Of a stretch of 24,200 nt of DNA, positions 6,297 through 24,200 are shown piece by piece (position 1 is the first letter of the stretch; every line of letters begins with the position of its first letter). The notes below the pieces were generated by a model. The model was not told the origin of the DNA. It worked only from the letters and a program-made list of their open reading frames with translations, and ran no database searches. Position numbers and translations under genes: made by a program. The stretch comes from a virus. The stretch is from IMG/VR virus record IMGVR_UViG_3300028883_000138, positions 1-24,200 of that record, one strand, 5' to 3'.

Positions 6297-7319
6297 TTAA
6301 AAATAATTTGCAGTAGCGTTTCTAATCATCATTTGTATGGAATACGCTGCTTCTGTGTTATACATTCCTGTATAAGAAAGTTCTTGTGTAAGAGTTTCAG
6401 CTCCTCCCACTTCTGGTTGATTAGAATTAAGATAAGCTGCCGGTATTCTTATAATCATCGCATAAGTAGTACCGCCCGCTGTAATAGTAACACCTGTGTC
6501 TGCTGTTATTCTAATAGCAGTCATAGTGTTATCAATAAACCTATCGTATGCTGTAGTTGTGTCAAATCTCATACCTACTGTTAGAGCTACATCTCTCATA
6601 ACAGGAGGTAAGACGGAAATATTCCGACTTCCTAGACTTCTTTGGTCTCCATCTATGTTATTATTGAGTGAAAGCTCAAAATTAGTAACATATTCAGCAC
6701 TTACGTTTGTTATAGAATCACCTGTTTCAAATGCAATGTCAACAAAGTTTATTGGCAGTACATCCGAAAAACTCACTGTAGGTATAGAACTCGAAATACT
6801 ACACCCACTTCCGATTATCTCACAAGTAAAACCAACAGGGCTTCCTATCTCACCGCTTAAAGTAAGATTGTTAACTCTACAACCTGCGTGATTCCAAACG
6901 TTAGTATCTCCTCTTCTTACTGATATAGAAAGACCTTTTACATCGCTTGAAGTGTTAGTTCCAGCATTACTTTCCATGTCTCCTGTATTGAACGTATGTT
7001 CTACAGCGCCAGCAGCAAGAGTATTAGCGCTAACGGTTCCACCCATAGCCTGTTTTACAATAAGCGCAAAAGCATCTTCGGCCACATTAACCGGCGCTTC
7101 CAAAGAACCACTTACAGTTTCATTCATTATCATTCTTTTTTTGTAATCTCTGGTCGTATTAACCGCAGGAACCTTTAATTCCTCTCGTTCCTGTTTTAGA
7201 GATTCACTATTAAACTCTATAAAAGCGGTTGCTGTAACAAAAGTCCCTAAAGTAGTTTCTTCTGCTATCCCCACCGCGCTTTGGTATCCCATCTTAGGGA
7301 CTGCATTTCCAACAGCCAT
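6297..7319 (-). CDS. Major tail tube protein
   Basis: A 340-aa protein upstream of the tail chaperones, where siphoviruses encode the tube subunit. It begins MAVGNAVPKMGYQSAVGIAE and continues with TLGTFVTATAFIEF, the 'g.q....vg.E.t.Gt.......l' opening common to siphoviral tube proteins. Then NETVSGSLEAPVNVAED matches the 'v.G.i..e....' beta strand of that fold. The remainder is beta-rich with VNNLTLSGEIGSPVGFTCEI, as in tube proteins, and an Ig-like or extra insertion may account for the large size. The start has GGAGGAA upstream. No sheath gene lies nearby, so the tail is non-contractile. Confidence is high from context plus sequence character. Confidence 0.85.
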   Translation of the reverse strand: MAVGNAVPKMGYQSAVGIAEETTLGTFVTATAFIEFNSESLKQEREELKVPAVNTTRDYKKRMIMNETVSGSLEAPVNVAEDAFALIVKQAMGGTVSANTLAAGAVEHTFNTGDMESNAGTNTSSDVKGLSISVRRGDTNVWNHAGCRVNNLTLSGEIGSPVGFTCEIIGSGCSISSSIPTVSFSDVLPINFVDIAFETGDSITNVSAEYVTNFELSLNNNIDGDQRSLGSRNISVLPPVMRDVALTVGMRFDTTTAYDRFIDNTMTAIRITADTGVTITAGGTTYAMIIRIPAAYLNSNQPEVGGAETLTQELSYTGMYNTEAAYSIQMMIRNATANYF

Positions 7320-7322
7320 TTT

Positions 7323-7529
7323 TTATTCCTCCATTTCCTGTATTATACTTCGCCTTTGTCTCACTTCCTCAAAACAAGGGTTATTTCCATTTTTCCGTTT
7401 CAGTAAATTTATTTTCTCTCCTTCTGTGACCTCAAGAGTATTATCCCCACTTGGTAAAGAAAGCCCATTTGGGTACTTTGCCAATTTAGGAATATATATT
7501 GGCCTGTGATCGATATATTTAAGTTTCAT
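7323..7529 (-). CDS. Small hypothetical protein between the Maf-like gene and the tail tube
   Basis: A 68-aa protein beginning MKLKYIDHRPIYIPKLA. The start overlaps the upstream stop as ATGA and has GGAGG five bases before it. The sequence TLEVTEGEKINLLKRKNG and then NPCFEEV resembles short proteins found in many phage head-tail regions with a 'v...ea..LlkrknG...F..v' pattern. I infer a small virion or assembly protein, but do not know its role. There is no membrane segment or enzymatic motif, and the C-terminus is charged (RQRRSIIQEMEE). Confidence 0.55.
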   Translation of the reverse strand: MKLKYIDHRPIYIPKLAKYPNGLSLPSGDNTLEVTEGEKINLLKRKNGNNPCFEEVRQRRSIIQEMEE

Positions 7530-8548
7530 ACTGCCTCCAAAAATTCTAAAACTGGTTTAGGTATATGATTAACAATGACTTCCGCTACATTATTGTTTTG
7601 TAAAGTCTGTTGTAATAATTCCTGTGAACTAGGCCCCGCTGGTATATGTATTGTTTCCATAAAAGCCTTCATAATGTCCTGCTTTTCCTGTTCAGTAGCT
7701 TTTTCAAATTTTGAATTCTTTAATTTCTTTTTTAAGTCCGCTCTAGGCGTTGCTAATATGCCCTGACCTGAACAATTATATATAGGTCTACCTCTCACTA
7801 CTGAATTTAGAAAGTCGCTTAACCACCTAGCGCTGAATAATAAGTTTTGACTGGTATTCGCATAATCTCCATTAAAATCAATTGTAGCAGCGTGTTTCAT
7901 CCAATACCTTTTGTCTGAATCAGTAGCCCCATGCGAATAGTAAGGTTCATTTTCTTTCCAGCAAAAATCATAGCCTACTAAATACATTTCCCTGCATCCT
8001 AAGACCTGTGTACTAAACACTACCACAGTATTTCCTACGTTAGAACTAGCTGGTATAACCTCTCTACATCCTGAGATTTCGCTGAATATTTCCTCTGATT
8101 GAATATTATCTTTATTCACATAGAAGTAGACAGGCCCCTTCCAATTATACGGCCATTCCGGATTCGCGTTTACATTAGAAAGGAGTATAATCCCGTCTGT
8201 TTGATCTTTCCACGGTTCCATCCATTTTTCATAACTAATCCCGGCGTCTGCTATAAATACATAATGAGGCTTTACTCCTGCATCTAAGAGGTAACCCAGA
8301 CACTTATCTACACATGCTATCATAACATTATCTTTATACTGTGCTATTGTATCAATGTTTTTAAAAAACGAGTTACCAAACGCTACACAAAGTAGATTTC
8401 TTCCAACACATTGATACAGTAGATCCTTATATAATCTACCGTTCTTTTTGTATAACTCCCCATTCTTTTTAGCGTTACTCCGCCAAATGTCTTCCCATTG
8501 GCCAAAAGCTGCTTTGCTTTGTTTTAAAACTTCATCTGAACTTAACAT
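7526..8548 (-). CDS. Maf/DUF115 family (MptE-like) glycosyltransferase-like protein
   Basis: A 340-aa protein of the DUF115/MptE-like family, which includes the Maf proteins that transfer nonulosonic acids to Ser/Thr of flagellin. A nucleotide-sugar-type Rossmann core is visible: LLCVAFGNSFFKNID (about 52-66; family pattern 'G.GPSL...i'), MIACVDKCLGYLLDAGVKPH (76-95) and YVFIADAGISYEKW (96-109). Later come VGNTVVVFSTQVLGCREMYL and GYDFCWKE, matching 'g.s.....a..lg...i.l.G.D.a'. The family GPSL appears here as GNSF. The start has AAGGAGATATT before the ATG. It lies between tail terminator and tube genes, overlapping the next gene, so it is co-expressed with virion proteins. I infer a role in glycosylating a virion protein, but substrate and donor are unknown. 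Confidence 0.75.
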   Translation of the reverse strand: MLSSDEVLKQSKAAFGQWEDIWRSNAKKNGELYKKNGRLYKDLLYQCVGRNLLCVAFGNSFFKNIDTIAQYKDNVMIACVDKCLGYLLDAGVKPHYVFIADAGISYEKWMEPWKDQTDGIILLSNVNANPEWPYNWKGPVYFYVNKDNIQSEEIFSEISGCREVIPASSNVGNTVVVFSTQVLGCREMYLVGYDFCWKENEPYYSHGATDSDKRYWMKHAATIDFNGDYANTSQNLLFSARWLSDFLNSVVRGRPIYNCSGQGILATPRADLKKKLKNSKFEKATEQEKQDIMKAFMETIHIPAGPSSQELLQQTLQNNNVAEVIVNHIPKPVLEFLEAV

Positions 8549-8557
8549 AATATCTCC

Positions 8558-9049
8558 TTAATTTGAGTATAAATCGATCGTCAGTGTAATTTCTACAATA
8601 CTATTGTAAGTATCATTAGATTCTGAAACATCATAGTTAACATTTGAAACTAAGGCCTGTAATACCTGAGTAGTATTTGAGAGCTTAGGAAATGTTCTGA
8701 ACAAACTTTCCAAGTTACTAGACAGCCTAATCATTTCGTCATCACTCGCCTCTCTACCGTCTGGCTGTCCTAACCCGTAATCAGTAACGCCAACTATATT
8801 GTAATTTAGTGAAATATTTCTTCTGTCTGTTCTTCCTAATTGTGCAAATTCTTCCTGTTTATTATTCAGCTCTACAAATACACTAGGAAAGTTAATATTT
8901 AAAATAGGCTTTATTTCGTGATAGCCCCTTACTACCTGTTTTACTTTTTCATTCAATCCAGCAGAAATATTATAACTAGAAGTAGTAGTATTGTTCTTTT
9001 CTATCAAGTTCTTTAGGCTATCGCCAAATGTTATTAAATTTAAAGCCAT
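8558..9049 (-). CDS. Tail terminator / head-tail joining protein
   Basis: A 163-aa protein that overlaps the gpG-like gene by one base (TAATG) with AGGAAATA before the start. The sequence shows the alternating pattern of tail terminator proteins: an N-terminal helix (ITFGDSLKNLIEKN), then INFPSVFVELNNKQEEFAQLG and SLNYNIVGVTDYG, an internal helix (DEMIRLSSNLESLFRTFP), and a final strand NSIVEITLTIDLYSN. This matches the 'p.i.i......e......g......l.i.v....' plan of the gpU/minor tail family. Gene order (connector, gpG-like, this, tube) also fits. The exact family is not certain. Confidence 0.65.
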   Translation of the reverse strand: MALNLITFGDSLKNLIEKNNTTTSSYNISAGLNEKVKQVVRGYHEIKPILNINFPSVFVELNNKQEEFAQLGRTDRRNISLNYNIVGVTDYGLGQPDGREASDDEMIRLSSNLESLFRTFPKLSNTTQVLQALVSNVNYDVSESNDTYNSIVEITLTIDLYSN

Positions 9050-9465
9050 TATTTCCTCATTATAAACCTAGCTAGTGTTTTACGCATTAAATTTTTAGCT
9101 TTCTTACTAATCCACATATAAGGCCTTGCAGGAATATTCCTTGAACTATCACCGAAATGATGTGTTGCCGCATAAACTAGGTCAGTAAATACTATAGCTT
9201 CTCTAGCTGCAGCTTTTGACCTTATAGAAGCCCTTAATATTCCAGTGTCTTGTAGAATTTTAGTTCCGCCTCTCTTTCGAGGACTTTTTAAATTAGGCCA
9301 TTTTCCCTTAGGGCCTCGTTCATCCTTGAAGTGTTCCACAACGTCCCGTTGTCCTTGTGCGGCTATCCTTAACATAGCTACTTCAGGATTGACTAATTTC
9401 TTTTCCATCTTCTTGAATCTTTTTAGAACTTCTTTAACGCCTACTATGTTTATGCTAACGGGCAT
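9049..9465 (-). CDS. Mu gpG-like virion morphogenesis / tail completion protein
   Basis: A 138-aa basic protein of the phage virion morphogenesis family (Mu gpG, P2 gpS-like). Diagnostic features are an N-terminal helix (VGVKEVLKRFKKMEKKL), then a KILQDTGILRASIRSKA motif ('l.dtG.L..Si'), VYAATHHFGDSSRN ('YA..hq.G') and IPARPYMWIS ('iPaRpf.g.s'). In P2 and Mu these proteins complete the tail or join head to tail. The ATG at 9465 overlaps the preceding gene by 11 bases, with GAGG six bases upstream. Confidence 0.85.
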   Translation of the reverse strand: MPVSINIVGVKEVLKRFKKMEKKLVNPEVAMLRIAAQGQRDVVEHFKDERGPKGKWPNLKSPRKRGGTKILQDTGILRASIRSKAAAREAIVFTDLVYAATHHFGDSSRNIPARPYMWISKKAKNLMRKTLARFIMRK

Positions 9466-9946
9466 CCTCTACCTCTGATTTAAGTTCGGAATCGAAATCC
9501 CAGTCAAAAGAATCATCAATATCAAAAAGAGGCTGGTAGTCTTTCATATTAGAATCTACAATACCGCCCTCTTTTTCTGTGATCTCTTCAATTAACGATC
9601 CTGCAGTATCTACTAAATCAATGTCACCCTCTCGTATTTGCTCCAGTGTGTCCATTGCTAATTTAAGAAGATCCTCAAAATATTCTAGCCTATTAAGATT
9701 GTCCTGTGAATAAAAAGACCTATATGTATAATAGGCTGTAATATCTTCGCTGAGATTAGCCAATAAAGGCGGTGTAGGATCTATAGGCACAGAATACCTT
9801 TTGGAAATCTTTCCGTTTATTAAAGAATCCGCCCTTGTTATATGCCTACCCACGACTAGGCTTGTTTCAGAATAACCACTTGCTGTAGTAGTCTGTGGTA
9901 ATCCCGGTAGTACTGTTTGTATCGCTGTTAATGAAGAATATGCCAT
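9455..9946 (-). CDS. DUF1320-like (Mu gp36-type) head-tail connector
   Basis: A 163-aa acidic protein starting MAYSSLTAIQTVLPGLPQTT. The pattern of an N-terminal 'Y.t...i....g', then RADSLINGKISKRYSVPIDP followed by LLANLSEDITAYYTYR, is that of DUF1320/gp6-like adaptor proteins that dock under the portal: a helical bundle with 'Ad..Ida.l..RY..P....P..l......ia.y'. The C-terminus is very acidic (DSFDWDFDSELKSEVED). It sits between the capsid and the gpG-like gene, as in Mu-like head modules. The start uses TAATG overlap with GAGGAG upstream. Confidence 0.85.
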   Translation of the reverse strand: MAYSSLTAIQTVLPGLPQTTTASGYSETSLVVGRHITRADSLINGKISKRYSVPIDPTPPLLANLSEDITAYYTYRSFYSQDNLNRLEYFEDLLKLAMDTLEQIREGDIDLVDTAGSLIEEITEKEGGIVDSNMKDYQPLFDIDDSFDWDFDSELKSEVEDAR

Positions 9947-10227: not shown

Positions 10228-11160
10228 TTAAATTAAGTTTACTGTCTTAAATAAGAAACCACATGCTGTCGCAATGGCCTTCATGTCGTACTTAGTAGAA
10301 ACTTCAATAAAAGTTCCTTCTATGTCGTCTTCGTACCATCTGCGAACCCTCATGGGATTTCCTTTTCTTGAGACCCTGAAAGTTGCAGCAGCAGTCTTAG
10401 TTTTTATACCCGGTCTTGGTGCGAAATATCCCAACATCGCATCTGCTCCCCAAATAAAACCTTGATTTTCTGTTGCTCCCTCTTTTGCTGAATCTCTAAT
10501 CGCTGTTCCCACATGAACTTGCTCTAGGTCAAAAAGACTTGCAAGAAGTTCTTTGGTCACGATTGATTTCTGAACATACTTAACTCTTTCGTGAATATTC
10601 TGGTTTTCTTTCAATACCTCAAAAGTACTCCAACCAACAACCAGCTTATTAGGCATTTGTGCTGAAGCTGCCAGAATAACACCTGTAGCGCTCAAAACAT
10701 CCCCAATTGGATCTGCTGTAGTAGTTGCAGCATAATTCCAAGTAGTAGCTGTAGTGAGTGTTACATTGTTTGAAAAAGTAGTAGTTGTAAAAAGTAGCGT
10801 CATAGCGTCTACTTCATGTTTAAGCAGAATTTGATCTGTTAAATACTCTGTGATGTCTCTTTGCAGATTAAGAGGCGCGTCTGTGTTAGCTGCGTCTGTC
10901 TCTGTGATAACATCTTTCAAAGCCTGCTCTTGTGCTCTATAACTTGAAGTACTAAATGAAATAGTAGCCATGTTGGCCGGTGATCCATTAGCCCTTGCGG
11001 TTTCTTCAAGTCTAAAGTTGGAATTGTGTACCCAATAAAGGTCACTTTCCTTGTTTACTATAATGTCTTTAAGGACATCTCTCGCAATATAGTTTTCATT
11101 TCTATATTGTACTGAAATATTACTTAAAGGTTTGTTAATTCTTGTTGATCCTTGTGGCAT
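10228..11160 (-). CDS. Major capsid protein (HK97 fold)
   Basis: A 310-aa protein forming the icosahedral shell. The opening (SNISVQYRNENYIARDVLKD, then SDLYWVHNSNFRL) matches the 'vs..y....fia..v.p...v....g.y...d...fr' start of a large family of phage capsid proteins. ALKDVITETDAANTDAPLNL and LTDQILLKHEVDAMTLLF follow the 'd..e..ada..d.....t..l.....i..E...a.ll' helix, and the P-domain follows later. The C-terminal region SRKGNPMRVRRWYEDD and VSTKYDMKAIATACGFLF is typical. GGGAGGG precedes the ATG. It lies after the protease/scaffold and a decoration-type gene, as in Mu-like head modules. Thr-rich loops (TTTT, ATTT) are a visible oddity. Confidence 0.92.
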   Translation of the reverse strand: MPQGSTRINKPLSNISVQYRNENYIARDVLKDIIVNKESDLYWVHNSNFRLEETARANGSPANMATISFSTSSYRAQEQALKDVITETDAANTDAPLNLQRDITEYLTDQILLKHEVDAMTLLFTTTTFSNNVTLTTATTWNYAATTTADPIGDVLSATGVILAASAQMPNKLVVGWSTFEVLKENQNIHERVKYVQKSIVTKELLASLFDLEQVHVGTAIRDSAKEGATENQGFIWGADAMLGYFAPRPGIKTKTAAATFRVSRKGNPMRVRRWYEDDIEGTFIEVSTKYDMKAIATACGFLFKTVNLI

Positions 11161-14094: not shown

Positions 14095-16059
14095 CTACGT
14101 TAATAATCCTAAACTTTGTAATTTTGTTTCTAGTTCATCAACTCGAGTTTGTAAATTTGCTATAACTGAAAGGACCGTATTTCCTTCATCTTTTGTAACA
14201 AAGCCAAATCCGCCTGCTGATAAATCCTGTATCGCATAATCCGGTGTTCCCGGAGCTGTATAAGTAATTGTTGTTAATTGTGCCGTTAGTGCTGTTGGTT
14301 TTGCTACTGGAGCAGTATTAAAAAATGCCATTCCTGTACCGTCTATTCTAATCCGTGGTGTAGCACTATCGCAAATCTGCAATTCACCTGTGTTACTGTC
14401 TATAAGGCTGTTAGTAGCATTGTGATAAAGTTCTAAATCGTTCCCCGCGCCTATAAGTATTTTATGGTTATCCTGTAAAACTTTGAAGTCCGTAGCGTCG
14501 AATAGAAAATCTAACGCCCCGAACCCTATGCCAAAAGAACTGTCATTTGTATTTGTTACACTTTCGCCGAACGTTATTATATTGTCCCCTGCGTTTGAGC
14601 TTATTACAGCCTGCCCCATTGCAATTGAGGCTTTTCCAAGTGCCTGAGTGTTACCCCATCCTATAGCAACCGCACCGTAATCACCTGCGACATCTCCGGC
14701 CTGAATTGTACCGCCATCAGGGTAACCCATAGCAACCGAACCCGAACCTATAGAAATAATTTCTCCATATGCAGCGTAACCATGTGCAAACCCTCCTGCG
14801 CCGGAAGCTGTTATTCTTGCATCGTTACCGGCCCCGAATCCACCATAGCAAGCACCCTGAGCGAAAGCCCCAGCACCTGAAGCCCATATTTTACCCTCAG
14901 CGTTACCGCCTCCATTGGCTGCTCCCTGTGCAAAAGAGCCCTGACCGTTGCTGAGAATTGTACCATCACAAACTCCAGCACCGCCCATAAAACCGCCTGC
15001 AGCATATCCTTGAGCGAAACTTGAATATCCGCTTGATGTAATTATACTTAAACCGCTTGGAGCAGCACCAGTGTATCCGTGAGCAAAAGAACCTGTACTT
15101 GTCGCTGATATTGCCTGAGTTGTATTATTAATGGCTCTGCCTAAAGCAACCGCACCCTCTCCACTTGCGACAACGTTATACCCGATTGCCGTTGCTCCCA
15201 GACCGGAACTTGACTTAGAGTGATACCCCATTGCAATACTGTAAGACGCCGTCGCCTGAACACTGGCACCCATTGCAATAGACCCATATCCGGAAGCCGT
15301 TGGACTATTCCCAGTCGCAAAACAATATTGCCCGCTTGCTGTTGCTCCCGATCCAAAACTGACATCTCCTGCCTGTTGTGATTGACAGGCTGTTCCTATC
15401 GATACAGAATACAGTCCGCTTGCCGTACTTGATCCCCATGCCAGCGAATAATTACCGCTTGCCGTTGCACCATAGCCCGCAAGAGAGGCCGAGGCCCCGA
15501 CTAATGTTAAAGCCTCTTTAAGAGTACCACCGTCATTAACTTTAAATACAATATCTTTATTCGAGTTCGAGTTCAAAAACCAGAAATTATCATTATCTAA
15601 ATATATCTGCCCTGCTAATGTTCCAACAATTGTAAAAGCGTCTGCCCTGACATCGCCTGATACCGCTCCAACAACTTCGAAAGTGTTGCCATTAAACGTC
15701 ATGTATCCAGAAGGCCCGCCTGTTGGATATTCATCTTTAATTGCTCCTGTGGCGTCTTTATCGCCTATCAAGACTCTTGTAGCTGTATAACCGCCATTTA
15801 ATAAATTAGCTGCCAAAGTTCCACTTGTTAGTGTAACATTATTACTAGATATAGTCCAATCACCTGTTAAGTCAACTGATCCATCTTTTTTGAGAAAATC
15901 ACTTAAGGAATTTAATTTTGCGTTTACGTCATGCCCGCCCGCGCCTAAATTTGTAATATTATAACCCTGCCAGTTTTTGTCTGTGTCTATTACAAGACTG
16001 GAAAGTAAACCACTAAAAGGCAGTTGATCTATTTCTGAACCCTTAGTCTGAATTATCAC
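14095..16059 (-). CDS. Fibre protein with YadA-head-like repeats
   Basis: A 654-aa protein encoded directly after the portal, with ATGA overlap at 16059-16056. The N-terminus (about 30-110) has WQGYNITNLGAGG and SLSDFLKKDGSVDLTGDWTI, typical of phage fibre shaft starts. Residues about 190-510 contain many degenerate repeats of the form 'a.a.G..S.A.G....A.g..S.A.G' (SYSIAMGYHSKSSSGLGATA, GEGAVALGRA, GSFAHGYTG, GSVAMGYPDG, KASIAMGQAV), the left-handed beta-roll of trimeric YadA-type adhesin heads. The C-terminus (VIANLQTRVDELETKLQSLG) is a short coiled coil that may trimerise it. The repeat DNA is clearly richer in GC than its neighbours, partly because of the Gly/Ala content. Host or environmental surface binding is inferred. 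Being among head genes, it may be a head or neck fibre rather than a tail fibre. Confidence 0.85.
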   Translation of the reverse strand: MIIQTKGSEIDQLPFSGLLSSLVIDTDKNWQGYNITNLGAGGHDVNAKLNSLSDFLKKDGSVDLTGDWTISSNNVTLTSGTLAANLLNGGYTATRVLIGDKDATGAIKDEYPTGGPSGYMTFNGNTFEVVGAVSGDVRADAFTIVGTLAGQIYLDNDNFWFLNSNSNKDIVFKVNDGGTLKEALTLVGASASLAGYGATASGNYSLAWGSSTASGLYSVSIGTACQSQQAGDVSFGSGATASGQYCFATGNSPTASGYGSIAMGASVQATASYSIAMGYHSKSSSGLGATAIGYNVVASGEGAVALGRAINNTTQAISATSTGSFAHGYTGAAPSGLSIITSSGYSSFAQGYAAGGFMGGAGVCDGTILSNGQGSFAQGAANGGGNAEGKIWASGAGAFAQGACYGGFGAGNDARITASGAGGFAHGYAAYGEIISIGSGSVAMGYPDGGTIQAGDVAGDYGAVAIGWGNTQALGKASIAMGQAVISSNAGDNIITFGESVTNTNDSSFGIGFGALDFLFDATDFKVLQDNHKILIGAGNDLELYHNATNSLIDSNTGELQICDSATPRIRIDGTGMAFFNTAPVAKPTALTAQLTTITYTAPGTPDYAIQDLSAGGFGFVTKDEGNTVLSVIANLQTRVDELETKLQSLGLLT

Positions 16060-18341
16060 TTCTTAGGCCTCACTAGTTGTAAACCACCGCCTGTCCTAGG
16101 TTCTGTAGGTGGCATATTACTAAAACTCCCAAATTCTTCATCTTCAAATATAGGAACTATTAAGCTTCTACAGTTAGGGTGTAAAGGCGGTTGAAAATAT
16201 TCTAACTGCTGCGGTAGAAGGATCTTGCCGTCTAGTTGTGTACAAATATCGCTTGTTCTTCCGTCTAATATTGCGGAAAATTGAAATGCGCTAATTTCAC
16301 CCTCTTCTCTAAGCTCTGCAAACTGCTGTGTTCTTGCTTGGTTAAACGCCTTTGCTGTCTCTGTTCTTGTAATCATCTCAATTCGCGAACCGGAAATACC
16401 TAAGTTCCACGGCTTAAGAGCTTCTTCTAAAAGCTCGCTTGTCTGCTGTGTTCCATAGCCCTTTCTTATACCCTCTGCCAAAACTGCCTTAACTTTCTTT
16501 AATATTTCCTCTGATTCTACACCGCTAATTCTAATAGCTTCTTCTTCTATCCACTTGGCTATGTCTTCATTGTCTAAATTAAATTTCTTTCTGTTTACCG
16601 TAGAAGTACCGAAATTATAAGCGTCCTTTATCATATCCTTATAAAGCTTTGTAGTCTGGTTGACGTTCCTAAGCTTAACACTGTTAACTTGTTCTAATTT
16701 CTTCTTCTGTATAATCCGCTTTTTTCTAATGTCGTTCATTACGCCATTTATTATTAGTCTATAGGCCTCGTTTAACAACTGATTATACTTTTCTTGTATC
16801 TCTGCTTCTTTCTTTTCTACTTTGTTAAAATCAACTCTACGTTTTTCAAATACTGTAAGTTCTCTATAATATTTAGAAAACTCTTTTTGCATTTCCTTTT
16901 TGTCTTCTTCTGTCTGGCCGGGAGGCTTGTCATTCTTAGGTTTCTCTTTAGGTGGTTCAGGTTTTGAACTCTTTGGGTTTTCCTTATTGTTAGGCACATT
17001 TTGTGTATTCTCTTCTTGATTACCGTTATTCGCTAATTGATCTTTAAAAGCCTGCTTTTCTTCCTCAATCTTTTCTAATTCTTCTTTGCTTATCTCTGGC
17101 GCATTCACCTTATCTAAGAACCAGTTTATAGATTCGTTAGTAACTGGAATCTTACCTGTCTTAATAGCCTCTGTCCATCTCGTAAGGTCTTTTTCTTTCT
17201 GCTCTTCATCAATAGGCGCAAACCTGAAATGAGCATCAACCTTGTTCCCAAAGTTCCAAAATACTAATTGGTTTACTATATGCCTATTCACAATCCTTTC
17301 TATATCCTGTCTTATAGACCTAATCACAGAATAAAATAAATCAAATTGCTCTTTTCCTAGTGCATAACTTCCTCCGCCTGTCTCGCTTCCGCTTAATCCC
17401 ATAAGGTCAGGAATTAGTAGTTTTCTGGCTATCATTGTGTCATACTTATTTATAGCCTTTTCGTATGCGTCAAATCCATTACCTTTCATCTCTAGGAATT
17501 CTACCATGACTTCATCAGGTATGGTCATTGCAGTTCTTGATTGAATGTTTTTTAATACTTTCAGTATATCATCTTTTATATTTGCTCTTGCTGCTGGAAT
17601 CTTGCCAATCGCAGTTGGCATTGCATATTTCTCTAGTGCAATATTCCAGAATTTTATAATATTGGTCTTACTCCACCAAGCTGTGTATACACCTTTGTTT
17701 ATATCCGACTGACCGTAGAAATTGTCAAACTCTTTTTGGTAGGAATATAGTATGACTTTATCAAGTGGAATCTTTTGATCTTGCCCGCCAGTATATTGAA
17801 CTAATTCTGTAATTGCTCCCTTATCGTCTGTTCTAATTTCCCAACTGTGAGGCGCTCTTGTTAAAAGCTTAGTAAAGACCATTTTAGGCCCTTCCGGAGT
17901 TTCTACAATATCAGCCACTTTCTCAGTTACACTAAATCCATAGTCTAAAGCGGTGAGAATCTCTTTTAATTTATTCTCGAATGTGTCATCTAAATAGACA
18001 TTCAGGCAAGATGTTATAAATTTAACTACATCTTCGTCTTCACACTCTATTTTCCAGCCTGAATTTAGAATAATGTGCTTCTTTAAACTCAAAGCTGCAT
18101 ATACTTGGTCATCCTGCCTTATATCATCATATAGGTCATAATTACCCTTTTGCTGGTAAAGTGCATCTGGATTATACGGTCTGAAGTTATAACCTTCAAA
18201 TAAAGCAGTAGAGGCCCATGAGACCTCTTGCTTAAGTGCTGGCGTGAACTCTTGCACTGCATTTGAATATTCTGTTATTGAGTATTGTTTTGGTTGGCCA
18301 TTTTCGTCTACTACCTGAATTCTTGACATAAACCTATCCAT
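16056..18341 (-). CDS. Portal protein fused to a MuF head-morphogenesis domain
   Basis: A 761-aa chain. Residues about 1-430 are a DUF935/Mu gp29-type portal: YDLYDDIRQDDQVYAALSLK, GWKIECEDEDVVKFITSCL, ALDYGFSVTEKVADIVETPE and GSETGGGSYALGKEQFDLF. Residues about 445-485 are a Pro/Lys/Asn-rich linker. The C-terminal section carries a MuF minor head domain: EMITRTETAKAFNQARTQQF (about 655-675), SAILDGRTSDIC and then LHPNCRSLIVPIF (about 720). In Mu the portal (gp29) and gpF (gp30) are separate genes, so here they make one protein. The portal forms the dodecameric DNA gate, and MuF proteins are internal head proteins. No strong Shine-Dalgarno site precedes the ATG at 18341; a second ATG at 18329 has GGATAGG just before it. 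Confidence 0.9.
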   Translation of the reverse strand: MDRFMSRIQVVDENGQPKQYSITEYSNAVQEFTPALKQEVSWASTALFEGYNFRPYNPDALYQQKGNYDLYDDIRQDDQVYAALSLKKHIILNSGWKIECEDEDVVKFITSCLNVYLDDTFENKLKEILTALDYGFSVTEKVADIVETPEGPKMVFTKLLTRAPHSWEIRTDDKGAITELVQYTGGQDQKIPLDKVILYSYQKEFDNFYGQSDINKGVYTAWWSKTNIIKFWNIALEKYAMPTAIGKIPAARANIKDDILKVLKNIQSRTAMTIPDEVMVEFLEMKGNGFDAYEKAINKYDTMIARKLLIPDLMGLSGSETGGGSYALGKEQFDLFYSVIRSIRQDIERIVNRHIVNQLVFWNFGNKVDAHFRFAPIDEEQKEKDLTRWTEAIKTGKIPVTNESINWFLDKVNAPEISKEELEKIEEEKQAFKDQLANNGNQEENTQNVPNNKENPKSSKPEPPKEKPKNDKPPGQTEEDKKEMQKEFSKYYRELTVFEKRRVDFNKVEKKEAEIQEKYNQLLNEAYRLIINGVMNDIRKKRIIQKKKLEQVNSVKLRNVNQTTKLYKDMIKDAYNFGTSTVNRKKFNLDNEDIAKWIEEEAIRISGVESEEILKKVKAVLAEGIRKGYGTQQTSELLEEALKPWNLGISGSRIEMITRTETAKAFNQARTQQFAELREEGEISAFQFSAILDGRTSDICTQLDGKILLPQQLEYFQPPLHPNCRSLIVPIFEDEEFGSFSNMPPTEPRTGGGLQLVRPKK

Positions 18342-20299: not shown

Positions 20300-20328
20300 A
20301 ATATACTCCTTTTTTAGTGTTTTGTCAA
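20300..20328 (-). promoter_or_regulatory. Sigma-70-type promoter across the start of the 50-aa membrane gene
   Basis: On the minus strand TTGACA (20328-20323), 17 bases, TATATT (20305-20300). The hexamers and spacing equal those of the portal promoter. The -35 overlaps the TGA of the TPR gene, and the spacer contains the AAGGAG of the 50-aa gene. Transcription would start near 20293, at or beside the second ATG of that gene (MGM...), so the RNA would be leaderless for it and could supply the 34-aa protein and the terminase genes. Confidence 0.6.
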
Positions 20329-20690
20329 GCATCCTTGTAGAATAGACATATCATATTCCAACTCTCTGTAAACCTCTGGGGGTTTATTCTTATAGTCTCT
20401 TTCATATATTCTACTGCTTTCTTTTGATTCTTCTTGTATCTACTCTCTATTAGAGCAAGGAAATAACAACTATCCTCCACGCCCGGTTTCATTTCTATAC
20501 ATTTCTTAAATAGTTCTTCTGCTTTTTTAATATGGTTGGAATAATGCATCTTTTCTGGTGTAGATTCATCCCATTGGAAATACATTTTAGCCAATTGGTT
20601 TATCAGTCTGGAACTATTAGGACACTGTTTTAAGCCTTCCTCCAATATTGCCTTTTGTGCTTCAAAGTTTTTCATGTTGTCCTTATTCAT
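20325..20690 (-). CDS. TPR-repeat protein, in frame with the preceding methyltransferase after one TAA
   Basis: A 121-aa helical protein with about three tetratricopeptide repeats: FEAQKAILEEGLKQCPNSSR, AKMYFQWDE, HIKKAEELFKKCIEMKPGVE and KKAVEYMKETIRINPQ. TPRs mediate protein-protein contacts. The first ATG is at 20690; a second at 20675 has AAGGA upstream. The same frame is open for 27 more codons up to the TAA of the methyltransferase, and this stretch (PQEAYKVFSKFPDAYF) looks like coding sequence that belongs to a further TPR. So this may be the C-terminal half of a methyltransferase-TPR fusion cut by a stop, or a gene with a start I cannot see. Sequencing error is also possible. Confidence 0.65.
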   Translation of the reverse strand: MNKDNMKNFEAQKAILEEGLKQCPNSSRLINQLAKMYFQWDESTPEKMHYSNHIKKAEELFKKCIEMKPGVEDSCYFLALIESRYKKNQKKAVEYMKETIRINPQRFTESWNMICLFYKDA

Positions 20691-20771
20691 AGCATGTAAA
20701 AAATAGGCGTCTGGAAATTTAGAAAATACCTTATATGCTTCTTGTGGCTTATTAACTATAGGATCTACAAG

Positions 20772-21641
20772 TTAAATTGCCTTTTTGTTTGCTTCTAGTA
20801 TCTGCTGCTGAATTTTATAATCTTCTTTGACTATATCCTTTTTTTCTCCCCTTTTACACAGTACCGTATACCCATATAGTGCTTCATCTTCTTTTATTAT
20901 CTCAAACCCTGCATTATTTAGTAAATTATGAAAACTCTGCTTTGAAAATACATTCACATGGTTTAGGTGTAGGTAGTTCTCCCAGTCTCTTAAAAACGAA
21001 CCTGACCATTCCTCTAAAACGTCAAACCAGAGAGGAACAGAAATATATAGTAAAGCATCATCTCTCATAACTGTCTTAATTCTTTCTAATTCTTTGTCCG
21101 GGTGTTGTATATGCTCTAGTACATGGTAATAACTGACAAAATTATATATATATCTAATGTCTATTTCTTGTGTAATTTGAATACCATATTCATGTCTTCC
21201 ATAGTTAGCGAAAGCTTTTGACCATTCAGTGCCGTAATATGTGTCACAATCCTCTATCTTTGTTACTTTTTCATAAGCTCTGTTTTCTCTAAGATCGTTT
21301 AAAAAACTACCCTGTGCGCAACCTACGTCTAGAAAAGGCCCTTCTATTTCTACGTCCTTCAAAAAAGCCCGATGGTATTCGTTTTTCCTGTTACATGTGA
21401 TTATATGGTTGGCCGTCATCACTGGTCTAGCCTGATTATAGCTGGTTTCTAATCTTTTGTCATTCACATAGTCATAAGTACAAAATCCACATTCCTTACA
21501 AATCTTAAATCCTACCGCTTCACCTTCTTCTCTAAGGTCTAAATCATACCAATATTTATGGCTCCTCAAATAATCTAAATCATGCCATTTATTTTCTTTA
21601 CATATCGGACAATTTTCTAACTTTATTATCATATTCAACAC
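20772..21641 (-). CDS. Zinc-ribbon class I SAM-dependent methyltransferase
   Basis: A 289-aa enzyme. The N-terminus has a zinc ribbon: CPIC (Cys11, Cys14) and CKECGFC (Cys48, Cys51). Then a Rossmann methyltransferase: motif I FLDVGCAQGSFL (103-114), an acidic residue at GTEWS (Glu139), and YYHVLEHIQHP (171-181). This pairing of a ribbon and a Methyltransf_23-type domain resembles enzymes acting on sugars or lipids, such as sugar C-methyltransferases; the substrate is not shown. The GTG start at 21641 has AAGGAG seven bases upstream and is preferred over the ATG at 21632; the gene overlaps the 102-aa gene by 44 bases. A TAA follows Ala-Ile, and the same frame continues as a TPR region. Confidence 0.85.
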   Translation of the reverse strand: MLNMIIKLENCPICKENKWHDLDYLRSHKYWYDLDLREEGEAVGFKICKECGFCTYDYVNDKRLETSYNQARPVMTANHIITCNRKNEYHRAFLKDVEIEGPFLDVGCAQGSFLNDLRENRAYEKVTKIEDCDTYYGTEWSKAFANYGRHEYGIQITQEIDIRYIYNFVSYYHVLEHIQHPDKELERIKTVMRDDALLYISVPLWFDVLEEWSGSFLRDWENYLHLNHVNVFSKQSFHNLLNNAGFEIIKEDEALYGYTVLCKRGEKKDIVKEDYKIQQQILEANKKAI

Positions 21642-21906: not shown

Positions 21907-22175
21907 TAGTTCGCCCTCTCTTTTATTATTTTTATCATATTTTCATAACTTTGATCAATATACTCTCCTATGCATCTTATGAAATCTTTTTTAAATAACT
22001 TAAAGAACTCTTCGTCTTTACCTGTACTTATAAAATATATAGTAGCCACGTCTATAACACCGCAAAAGCACAGTGTGTATGGATCTATATTGCAATTTCC
22101 TTTTTTATATGCCTTTTCTATATTATTTAAATTCTTCCTTATCGCGTCAAAATGTGATGAACTAAAATCAATCAT
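21906..22175 (-). CDS. Hypothetical helical protein
   Basis: An 89-aa protein that starts MIDFSSSHFDAIRKNLNNIE. The ATG overlaps the aldolase-like gene stop as ATGA and has GAGGAG eight bases upstream. Sequence is mostly helical with Cys at 28, 36, 38 and 68 and a partly hydrophobic centre (LCFCGVIDVATIYFIST) that is not clearly a membrane span. No family is recognised. Tight coupling suggests it works with, or is regulated with, the aldolase-like enzyme or the methyltransferase. Confidence 0.6.
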   Translation of the reverse strand: MIDFSSSHFDAIRKNLNNIEKAYKKGNCNIDPYTLCFCGVIDVATIYFISTGKDEEFFKLFKKDFIRCIGEYIDQSYENMIKIIKERAN

Positions 22176-22885
22176 TTCAATATCTCCTCTAATTCATCTA
22201 CTGACAGCATTTGGAATTGATCCGTTTTACTTTTCCCGTCTATTGTACATTCAAACATAAAATGTTGAACTCCTATCGCCTTAAAAGCCCTATAGGTATC
22301 TCCTATGAAATCCTTATACCCTACACTGTGACTACAATCAACTATTAGTTTATCAAATATATCCGGCCTTTCGTTCTTAATTCTTATCACCCCTTTTAGG
22401 TCTGGACTCCATCTCGAATACTCTAATCTATCAAATGTGTTAATCCCTCTCTCTACAAAAAACACTTCATCCGTACAAGCTGCGTGATTCGTATAAATAT
22501 CGTATAATCCTATAGTTTCATCTACAGTCATCCCAAAATCACGCTTAAAAAGCACCATCCCTGTGACGTGTCTTAAGGCCTCTATCAATCTATAGTTTTG
22601 TGAATTTCTAGCGCCAAACCAAAAATAATATAAGTCCTTCACAAGTTCAATGTGTTCTTTTGTGAATATCTCGCATCCTACCGGTATTATGTTTTCGTTT
22701 ATCTGCTGTAGTACGTTTATCCCAATGTCACCTACTCCGCTATAGTATCGGTCAATCTGAGTTCCACCACCCCACAATTTACACCTGTAAAAGTCTGCTA
22801 TTCCCACAAGTGCTTTTGCAGTGTGTTGGACCATTCTGGTTTCTGAAAAATCATAGTATAAACAAGGGCCTGCAAATATAGCCAT
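22172..22885 (-). CDS. DAHP/KDO8P synthase-family aldolase
   Basis: A 237-aa enzyme-like protein of the family that condenses phosphoenolpyruvate with an aldose phosphate. Visible motifs: FAGPCL (Cys8), CKLWGGG (about 35-41), FGARNSQN (90-97), VLFKRDFG (Lys114, Arg115), VERGINTF (144-151), IVDCSHSVG (His186), MFECTID (Glu212) and KTDQFQML (Asp222). By family knowledge Cys8, His186, Glu212 and Asp222 match the four metal ligands, and the GARN, K-R and ERG motifs match phosphoenolpyruvate binding. The acceptor loop, KPRTSP in DAHP synthase or KANRS in KDO8P synthase, is replaced by GGGTQID, so the acceptor is probably different. There is no N-terminal regulatory domain. The start overlaps the previous stop (TAATG) with AAGGAG. 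It is likely active, but its product is unknown. Confidence 0.8.
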   Translation of the reverse strand: MAIFAGPCLYYDFSETRMVQHTAKALVGIADFYRCKLWGGGTQIDRYYSGVGDIGINVLQQINENIIPVGCEIFTKEHIELVKDLYYFWFGARNSQNYRLIEALRHVTGMVLFKRDFGMTVDETIGLYDIYTNHAACTDEVFFVERGINTFDRLEYSRWSPDLKGVIRIKNERPDIFDKLIVDCSHSVGYKDFIGDTYRAFKAIGVQHFMFECTIDGKSKTDQFQMLSVDELEEILK

Positions 22886-23157
22886 TAGTACACTCCTTTT
22901 CTGAAGTTTATTTTTTTATACCATTCTTCAAATTCTTGTTTATTTCTTTTGTTAATATAGCCTCTTCTCTGTAATTCACCTTGAATTATACTTTCTTTTC
23001 TGGCTATATCTAAAACTTGATCATCTGAAACTCTATTTTTTGCTTCCCATTTTAAATCCATCAAAGTGGTAAAAAGATTCAATAAAGTCTTTGTCCCTAC
23101 TTTATGTACTTGCTCTCGAAATCTTTCTACGTCTACTGTTAAAATATTCTGTGTCAA
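22885..23157 (-). CDS. Hypothetical protein before the aldolase-like gene
   Basis: A 90-aa charged, helical protein, LTQNILTVDVERFREQVHK onward. I choose the TTG at 23157: AGAGGTGG lies seven bases upstream and the start overlaps the upstream stop as TTGA. An ATG at 23181 would give 98 residues but has a weaker site and a larger overlap. No family is recognised. The segment SDDQVLDIARKESIIQGELQ is a helix, and the C-terminus is basic (YKKINFRKGVY). It shares a TAATG junction with the aldolase-like gene. Confidence 0.55.
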   Translation of the reverse strand: MTQNILTVDVERFREQVHKVGTKTLLNLFTTLMDLKWEAKNRVSDDQVLDIARKESIIQGELQRRGYINKRNKQEFEEWYKKINFRKGVY

Positions 23158-23306
23158 AACCTGTCCACCTCTTTTATCCATCCAATTTTTATTTCAATCT
23201 GGTAATTATCCATCATTTTTCTTTTCACTTCTCTTTTCGATTTGGCAACTACATAAATAACACAAATATCATCACCATTATTAAACTTGACCTCGTAAAT
23301 TTTCAT
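23154..23306 (-). CDS. 50-aa small protein, related to the one just before it
   Basis: A 50-codon gene. It starts at the ATG at 23306 inside the end of the previous gene, and stops with TGA at 23156-23154. The protein begins MKIYEVKFNNGDD and contains VIYVVAKSKREVKRKM, then IEIKIGWIKEVDRF. It matches the preceding 53-aa protein in plan (MK-[LI]-Y-[KE]-V, then V.A..[KE]RE, then a final [VI]KE[IV]) and many tiny phage proteins with this beta-alpha-beta layout. Function unknown. It fills what otherwise looks like a 100-base gap. Confidence 0.65.
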   Translation of the reverse strand: MKIYEVKFNNGDDICVIYVVAKSKREVKRKMMDNYQIEIKIGWIKEVDRF

Positions 23307-23442
23307 TTCTGATTTCCTTCACGCAATATATTTCTAAAATTTTTGATCCATCAAAATCTAAATACCTTAAAATTGCATGTTCTCTTTCAGACGCTATAAC
23401 ATAATAATCCCTTCTCAGTGTCACTACCTTATATAGCTTCAT
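23281..23442 (-). CDS. 53-aa small protein, paralogue of the next gene
   Basis: The ATG at 23442 is within the final codons of the glycosyltransferase gene. The frame is open back to 23568, but most of that is the shadow of the glycosyltransferase. The protein is MKLYKVVTLRRDYYVIASER onward, ending CVKEIRNENLRGQV. The plan of a first strand, a YYVIASERE strand-to-helix section, and a final strand with VKEI is shared with the next gene. Function unknown; the Shine-Dalgarno site is weak, so it may be coupled to the gene before it. Confidence 0.55.
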   Translation of the reverse strand: MKLYKVVTLRRDYYVIASEREHAILRYLDFDGSKILEIYCVKEIRNENLRGQV

Positions 23443-24193
23443 TTTTCGGGTGACTTGGATCTTGTGTCTTCTGTCCCTCTCTCCTCCTGTAGTTCCATAA
23501 AGGCTTAGGGATAAAACTTGTCTTATAAACCTTTCGCCATCTATTATAAAATTCCTTTCCTTCCTCAAATCCCGGTGTTAAACCATCTTTATATTTCAAT
23601 TCATTAACACACCACCGGCTCAATAAAGCACAGGCAGGATGCCACATGTTTTCTAAAATTTCCGCTGTTGCTGTCAATGCAGATTTCGTTTCATTATATC
23701 CTGTAAGGACACCGTCGGATTCGTCCAATCTGGCCTGTGTGACGGTTTCGGAAATAAAGTTGGGATGTATAGTATCATCACTGTCAACGCGAACAATAAA
23801 CCGGCCACGACCCAAAACGGTACACTTATTGCTAGAATAAACCAACCCACTATTTTCTTCATTTCTTATCACCTTCACTCTTTTTTGTTGTACTGGACTC
23901 AATTTAGAGTAATATTCCATGATTACATCCATGGAATTGTCTGTAGACCCATCATCTAAAACTATATACTCAAAGTCGTCAAAGTCTTGATTTAAAACAG
24001 ACTCCATGCAGTCTATTATGTAATCGGCTGTATTATAATTGCACGTATAAACCGTGACTTCTGGTAAGTGGTTAATTCTCAATAAATATTTGTGTTTCTT
24101 TAAAAAGTTTATTATGTCCAAAGTTCCCGGATTTGAAAGGCAGCAAAATAGTATTCTAAGTAAAGTTAAGTCTTCCTCATAGTCCATGACCAA
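23429..24193 (-). CDS. Family 2 glycosyltransferase, 5' end possibly outside window
   Basis: A GT-A fold glycosyltransferase of family 2 (254 residues visible). The catalytic domain starts about residue 45: PEVTVYTCNYNTADYIIDCM, the nucleotide-sugar motif VLDDGSTDNS (78-87), RGRFIVRVDSDD with the metal-binding DSDD (137-140), and a later FIPKPLWNYRRREGQKT. It transfers a sugar from a nucleotide donor; acceptor unknown. The frame is open to the right edge (TTG at 24193, ATG at 24187) with no binding site visible in the 13 remaining bases, and the N-terminal 45 residues do not look like the domain start, so the gene may begin outside. Its stop is overlapped by the 53-aa gene. Confidence 0.85.
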   Translation of the reverse strand: MVMDYEEDLTLLRILFCCLSNPGTLDIINFLKKHKYLLRINHLPEVTVYTCNYNTADYIIDCMESVLNQDFDDFEYIVLDDGSTDNSMDVIMEYYSKLSPVQQKRVKVIRNEENSGLVYSSNKCTVLGRGRFIVRVDSDDTIHPNFISETVTQARLDESDGVLTGYNETKSALTATAEILENMWHPACALLSRWCVNELKYKDGLTPGFEEGKEFYNRWRKVYKTSFIPKPLWNYRRREGQKTQDPSHPKNEAI

Positions 24194-24200
24194 TCTATAA

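Follow-up and report, generated by a model that had tools for sequence, protein, structure and literature searches.

What does a gene related to bacterial flagellin glycosyltransferases do inside the tail operon of a phage, and on what would its product act? Maf flagellin glycosyltransferases (PF01973) include the Magnetospirillum protein 5MU5, PseD/PseE of Campylobacter, and CbMaf. In the window, which is the whole stretch of DNA analysed in this study (an IMG/VR record, probably fragmentary, with a length of exactly 24,200 bases), a DUF115 (PF01973) gene lies among tail genes, and a sequence-only reading had taken its product for a Maf/DUF115-type glycosyltransferase that may act on virion proteins.

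The DUF115 Gene in the Tail Operon

The DUF115 ORF starts with ATG at position 8548, AAGGAGAT lies directly 5' of this ATG and is a good ribosome-binding site, and the plus strand opposite the ORF is full of stops. The ORF is a real gene and not a chance one, because PF01973 was matched by 65/65 non-redundant relatives. As the sequence-only reading had supposed, the MAF_flag10/DUF115 family recognised the window protein itself (PF01973, 72.9 bits over a cut-off of 34.6, E 3.4e-20, residues 38-199), and PHROGs gave no match for it. The TGA of the gene (7528-7526) overlaps the ATG (7529-7527) of a 68-aa ORF as ATGA, which bears out the coupling to a small tail-region gene described earlier. Apart from L135, the records with this small gene between DUF115 and tube belong mainly to the subclade of the window itself (L100-L113, L178). 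The gene order in the window is major capsid protein (MCP), Gp36-like protein, Phage_tail_S, terminator, DUF115, 68-aa gene and tube (Table 1). The place between tail terminator and tail tube was thus read correctly, with PF18906 downstream and upstream a terminator presumed by position, which had no family match above the cut-off in Pfam or PHROGs.

The 654-aa ORF at 14095-16059, between the portal and protease genes, has YadA-head-like repeats and a higher GC content (44%), and it is possibly a head fibre. A single 761-aa ORF at 16056-18341 combines a Portal_Mu portal with a Mu F-like minor head protein.

Table 1. Features of the window in the tail operon and the sugar cassette.
Feature	Position	Strand	Basis
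Tail tube protein (PF18906 Phage_tube_2), candidate acceptor	6297..7319	minus	PF18906 match
68-aa gene, ATGA-coupled to the DUF115 gene	7323..7529	minus	ORF
Putative DUF115/PF01973 Maf-like transferase, 340 aa	7526..8548	minus	PF01973 match, 5MU5 fold match, profile match to cellular Mafs
Presumed tail terminator, 163 aa	8558..9049	minus	Position and synteny
Phage_tail_S tail completion/neck protein	9049..9465	minus	PF05069, phrog_26
Gp36-like head-tail adaptor	9455..9946	minus	PF07030, phrog_195
Major capsid protein (MCP)	10228..11160	minus	phrog_1005, E 2.9e-69
TPR ORF	20325..20690	minus	Same frame as the methyltransferase ORF
Methyltransferase (PF13489), N-terminal part of cluster c0	20772..21641	minus	Pfam, clustering
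DAHP/NeuB-superfamily synthase	22172..22885	minus	PF00793, 66 bits; alignment
98-aa conserved gene, cluster c22, between fusion and synthase	22885..23181	minus	Clustering
C-terminal 256 aa of cytidylyltransferase-GT2 fusion	23429..24199	minus	PF00535, 90 bits; cluster with full fusions

Domain, Fold, and Profile of the DUF115 Protein

An AlphaFold2 model of the DUF115 protein was built from the 65-sequence alignment and reached a pLDDT of 95.5 and a pTM of 0.91. Its best fold in the PDB was Maf 5MU5 (Foldseek E 4.6e-11; Z 22.7, rmsd 3.0, 243 residues), the second best was the MptE archaeal 6-hydroxymethylpterin diphosphokinase of M. jannaschii, 8SD5 (Foldseek E 5e-5; Z 17.1, 203 residues), and SteA (Z 11) and then GT29/GT42 sialyltransferases (Z 8-10) followed. 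A profile search of PDB sequences gave the same first two, with Maf at E 1.1e-5 and 8SD5 at E 0.0016, the latter alignment spanning only profile positions 35-97. When aligned by HHalign with 20 cellular Mafs, the phage profile scored a probability of 99.6 and E 5.4e-24 over 233 columns, and the similarity ran past the Pfam domain and covered the whole catalytic domain. By structure and by profile, the central catalytic domain is closer to Maf than to MptE, with which the phage protein shares the Pfam family and the core fold; the best match is therefore not the pterin pyrophosphokinase that the sequence-only reading had named as an alternative. The general fold is also that of the CMP-sialic acid enzymes of GT42/GT29 (CstII 1RO8 and ST8SiaIII 5BO9, Z 9-10), whose relation to the phage protein lies below the resolution of sequence search. 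PF06002 (GT42, CST-I) was not listed among the Pfam matches of the 65 members, and the sialyltransferase fold scored a Z of about 9.

The nearly invariant residues of the family are G58, S60, D81, K82, D101, N129, D147, A167, N170, G192, D194, S233 and N235, and in the alignment and the model they track the ends of consecutive beta strands. Strand ends are the usual active-site edge in such a fold, so this arrangement argues against a purely structural part.

Studies have shown that Mafs have an N-terminal Rossmann-like domain, a central domain, and a C-terminal helical bundle domain (PMC11339370). In contrast, the phage model has one long N-terminal helix and a short helical tail instead of the two outer domains, the protein is only 16% identical to 5MU5, and its 340 aa compare with about 570-765 aa in most cellular Mafs. 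Tail genes also replace the flagellar genes around it. Because two defining features of Maf, the three domains and the flagellar setting, are missing, we believe that the protein should be called Maf-like: judging from alignment and model, it would work like the Maf core but is not a Maf proper. The earlier assignment to the Maf type thus holds for the catalytic domain and not for the terminal ones.

Relatives and Their Gene Neighbourhood

The tblastn search of phage and plasmid collections with the DUF115 protein gave no match at E 0.01; at E 10, only chance-level matches appeared (Gordonia phages and one faecal record), and PF01973 was absent from the two of these records that were searched. 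Single-sequence scans of viral and genome contigs were also unsuccessful, and the relatives were reached via the capsid. An alignment of distant major capsid proteins led to 80 viral loci; PF01973 scored above the cut-off in 3 of the 50 capsid-related records scanned, all three among the closest capsid relatives, and in these the gene sits between terminator and tube. A four-sequence DUF115 alignment led to 80 viral loci and three MAG contigs, giving about 80 relatives in uncultivated phages.

At loci with enough flank, the tube gene followed DUF115 in 77/78 and the terminator preceded it in 77/78; after near-copies were removed, the counts were 62/63 and 61/62, respectively. The gap between DUF115 and tube was at most 50 nt in 64/82. 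This neighbourhood is an independent result, since for most loci the collecting scan used DUF115 motifs only, and it answers positively the question raised by the sequence-only reading of whether relatives lie next to the tube. The tail operon was the setting at every locus, and the flagellar neighbourhood typical of Maf was found at none. The dN/dS values were 0.05 and 0.25, from the few pairs that were measurable.

The three MAG contigs (Phycisphaerae, Endomicrobiia and Pricia) resemble phage contigs in bins. When 392 genomes of the phylum of one of these MAGs were searched with the phage-type profile, the only strong match was on the phage-like contig of that MAG, and the remaining matches scored far lower and were mostly of full-Maf length.

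The sequence-only reading had also pointed to neighbours rich in Ser and Thr. The tube does contain 19.7% S+T, but several other tail proteins are equally rich (16-25%), so this richness does not single out the tube, and we rejected it as a pointer to the acceptor.

The Linked Sugar Cassette

Upstream of the terminase, the window carries a set of sugar genes that recurs in related phages in the order radical-SAM/SPASM protein, cytidylyltransferase-GT2 fusion, small gene, DAHP-like or NeuB-like synthase, and methyltransferase-TPR protein. Twenty cassette regions were inspected; they were chosen by their cytidylyltransferase match, so the count of that gene is biased there, and the other cassette genes were not used for the choice, except in some regions that also had a NeuB match. 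No pterin genes were recognised in the cassette. The DUF115 gene was never observed within the cassette itself; it always stood in the tail operon.

In the window, the N-terminal (cytidylyltransferase) part of the fusion lies off the contig end, and the fragment begins at a conserved RL..DYxED motif; full fusions in its cluster have about 443 aa and match PF02348 and PF00535. In the alignment, GPC, GARN, KR and ERG are conserved in the window synthase, as are CSH, E and D, which bind the metal, but its aldose motif, KPRTSP in true DAHP synthases, is altered. Because this motif is changed, the synthase probably uses an aldose other than that of DAHP synthases. DAHP-like and NeuB-like synthases hold similar places in the cassettes, which suggests that they share one role, the making of a 2-keto-3-deoxy sugar acid.

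Some minor observations concern the same genes. In the DAHP-like synthases of these phages, that of the window included, the catalytic residues are retained, and all share the changed aldose-binding motif, with GT in place of KPRTSP. The methyltransferase and TPR parts (window 20325-21641) form one ORF of about 440 aa in relatives and are split here by an in-frame stop. A radical-SAM/SPASM gene stands directly before the cytidylyltransferase fusion in L197 (8042-8923), L199 (4357-5313) and other cassettes, and both proteins weakly resemble portions of spiro-SPASM proteins (TIGR04321). In the Arthrobacter phage Wheelbite (L012, 1597-2718), an annotated class I aldolase lies within the capsid operon.

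The cytidylyltransferase (PF02348, CTP_transf_3) was present in 29/50 DUF115 records and in 2/46 capsid relatives without DUF115. Among contigs of at least 30 kb, the counts were 22/23 and 2/17, respectively (Fisher p 5e-8, with kinship ignored). The NeuB-type synthase was found in 16/50 and 2/46. Linked genes for nonulosonic-acid synthesis and CMP activation, which are a feature of Maf loci, thus accompany DUF115, the window itself holding the DAHP-like synthase and the truncated fusion only. These donor-pathway genes, which the sequence-only reading did not include, strengthen the case for a virion glycosyltransferase.

All DUF115 phages fall into one clade of the capsid tree (98/96). Their joint possession of DUF115 and the cassette therefore goes back in the main to a single acquisition that has persisted through long divergence, and not to many independent gains. 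In the sister record L025, neither DUF115 nor NeuB nor cytidylyltransferase is present. The only DUF115-minus records with both NeuB and cytidylyltransferase are L018 and L059, which stand apart from the DUF115 clade. They carry mutually homologous sialyltransferase-like ORFs (L018, 11537-12547; L059, 13057-14004) in the head-tail operon shortly after the capsid gene; one of the two has a weak CST-I sialyltransferase match, and an ORF of this type was missing from the other DUF115-minus loci searched. These two further lineages would support the link to a sugar cassette only through a different, CST-I-like protein. A weak PF01973 match in the DUF115-minus record G031 was considered; it was rejected as a family member, being a different, CST-I-like ORF.

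Proposed Function and Alternative Explanations

In this study, we think it fairly probable that the DUF115 protein is a minimal single-domain Maf-like transferase that uses a CMP-ulosonate to O-glycosylate one of the virion proteins, perhaps the tail tube. In the proposed pathway, the DAHP/NeuB-superfamily synthase would condense PEP with an aldose, so that the sugar would be at least partly phage-made; the SpsF/KdsB-like cytidylyltransferase, fused to a GT2 domain, would activate it with CTP; and the radical-SAM protein and the methyltransferase may tailor it. Judging from their genes, phages that carry the cassette look able to make and activate a sialic-acid-like sugar. During virion production, the DUF115 protein would move the CMP-activated 2-keto-3-deoxy (ulosonic, sialic-acid-like) sugar onto a virion protein encoded in the same operon, at Ser/Thr. 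The tube is the leading acceptor candidate because of the fixed neighbourhood, that is, by position, and a place beside the tube need not make the tube the acceptor. The GT2 domain, the radical-SAM protein and the methyltransferase exceed this simple scheme and could serve another product, on the cell surface or on DNA.

A catalytically dead DUF115 fold might instead have been recruited for the structure or assembly of the tail, for example as a chaperone, a tail completion protein or a tube cap. The gene is stable through the clade, and between terminator and tube it keeps its place as firmly as a structural gene would. However, most of the invariant residues are polar and are placed at strand ends like those of an enzyme pocket, the capsid relatives, L025 included, manage without DUF115, and sugar-activation genes are linked to it; we regard a structural role as unlikely.

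The protein might also be a glycosyltransferase whose target is a glycan of the cell surface or the DNA of the phage and not the virion, the tail operon setting late expression only. The GT2 domain and the methyltransferase make the cassette look like surface-glycan clusters, and phage DNA glycosylation is known, according to work cited in PMC12619734. However, DUF115 was seen in the tail operon and never in the cassette, its Maf relatives modify proteins (PMC11339370), and an enzyme that alters the cell surface would be of little use if expressed late. We therefore give this explanation a low probability.

The third alternative, an MptE-type 6-hydroxymethylpterin diphosphokinase that increases the synthesis of pterin or folate, has behind it the name of the Pfam model (MptE-like) and the second place of 8SD5 in both searches, but it is very improbable, since Maf is better by every measure and similar beyond the MptE-like domain, the genes of the cassette form a keto-acid sugar set and no pterin context was seen, and one would not expect a metabolic gene to remain fixed between terminator and tube.

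To our knowledge, sugars on phage particles have been reported only recently and for few phages. Freeman et al. (2023) reportedly described virion glycosylation in mycobacteriophages (Che8 and others), a system in which we are aware of neither a Maf-type transferase nor a fixed place in the tail operon nor a phage cassette for ulosonic acid. In both cases the glycosyltransferases, putative in the present phages, are phage-encoded, and glycans on the capsid and tail tube of mycobacteriophages are among those reported (PMC11256854, PMC12619734). Cellular Mafs can use CMP-Neu5Ac as well as CMP-Kdo, and they act on flagellin at Ser/Thr (PMC11339370). Similarly, a CMP-ulosonate is the probable donor of the phage enzyme, and its expected substrate would be the protein subunit of a polymer.

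As a probable Maf-like transferase of virion proteins, the DUF115 protein points to phages that probably sugar-coat part of their own particle. Because the transferase gene keeps its place in the tail operon as constantly as the tube gene does, and donor genes are linked to it, glycosylation is suggested to be a core part of virion building in the DUF115 clade. A benefit to the virion, for example the shielding proposed by the sequence-only reading, may follow, and glycosylation may bear on how these phages meet antibodies, lectins or surfaces. A wider reading, tentative and somewhat short of probable, is that of a complete phage-borne system in which a new ulosonic acid is made, CMP-activated and put on the tail tube by a pared-down Maf transferase with a fixed place among the tail genes, paralleling bacterial flagella, while a second phage lineage type does likewise with a CST-I-like transferase near the capsid gene. 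The mass of the tail tube now offers a direct test, and the compact single-domain transferase would be a means of studying how Maf enzymes choose their proteins.

Two proteins named 'MptE-like', A0A6J5PG89 and A0A0F7L3H2 (uncultured Caudovirales phage and marine virus), were met in the fold search at about 30% identity (E 1e-27 and 8e-25, respectively). They bear an automatic domain name only, without stated context or function, and by their similarity they probably belong to the phage DUF115 family.
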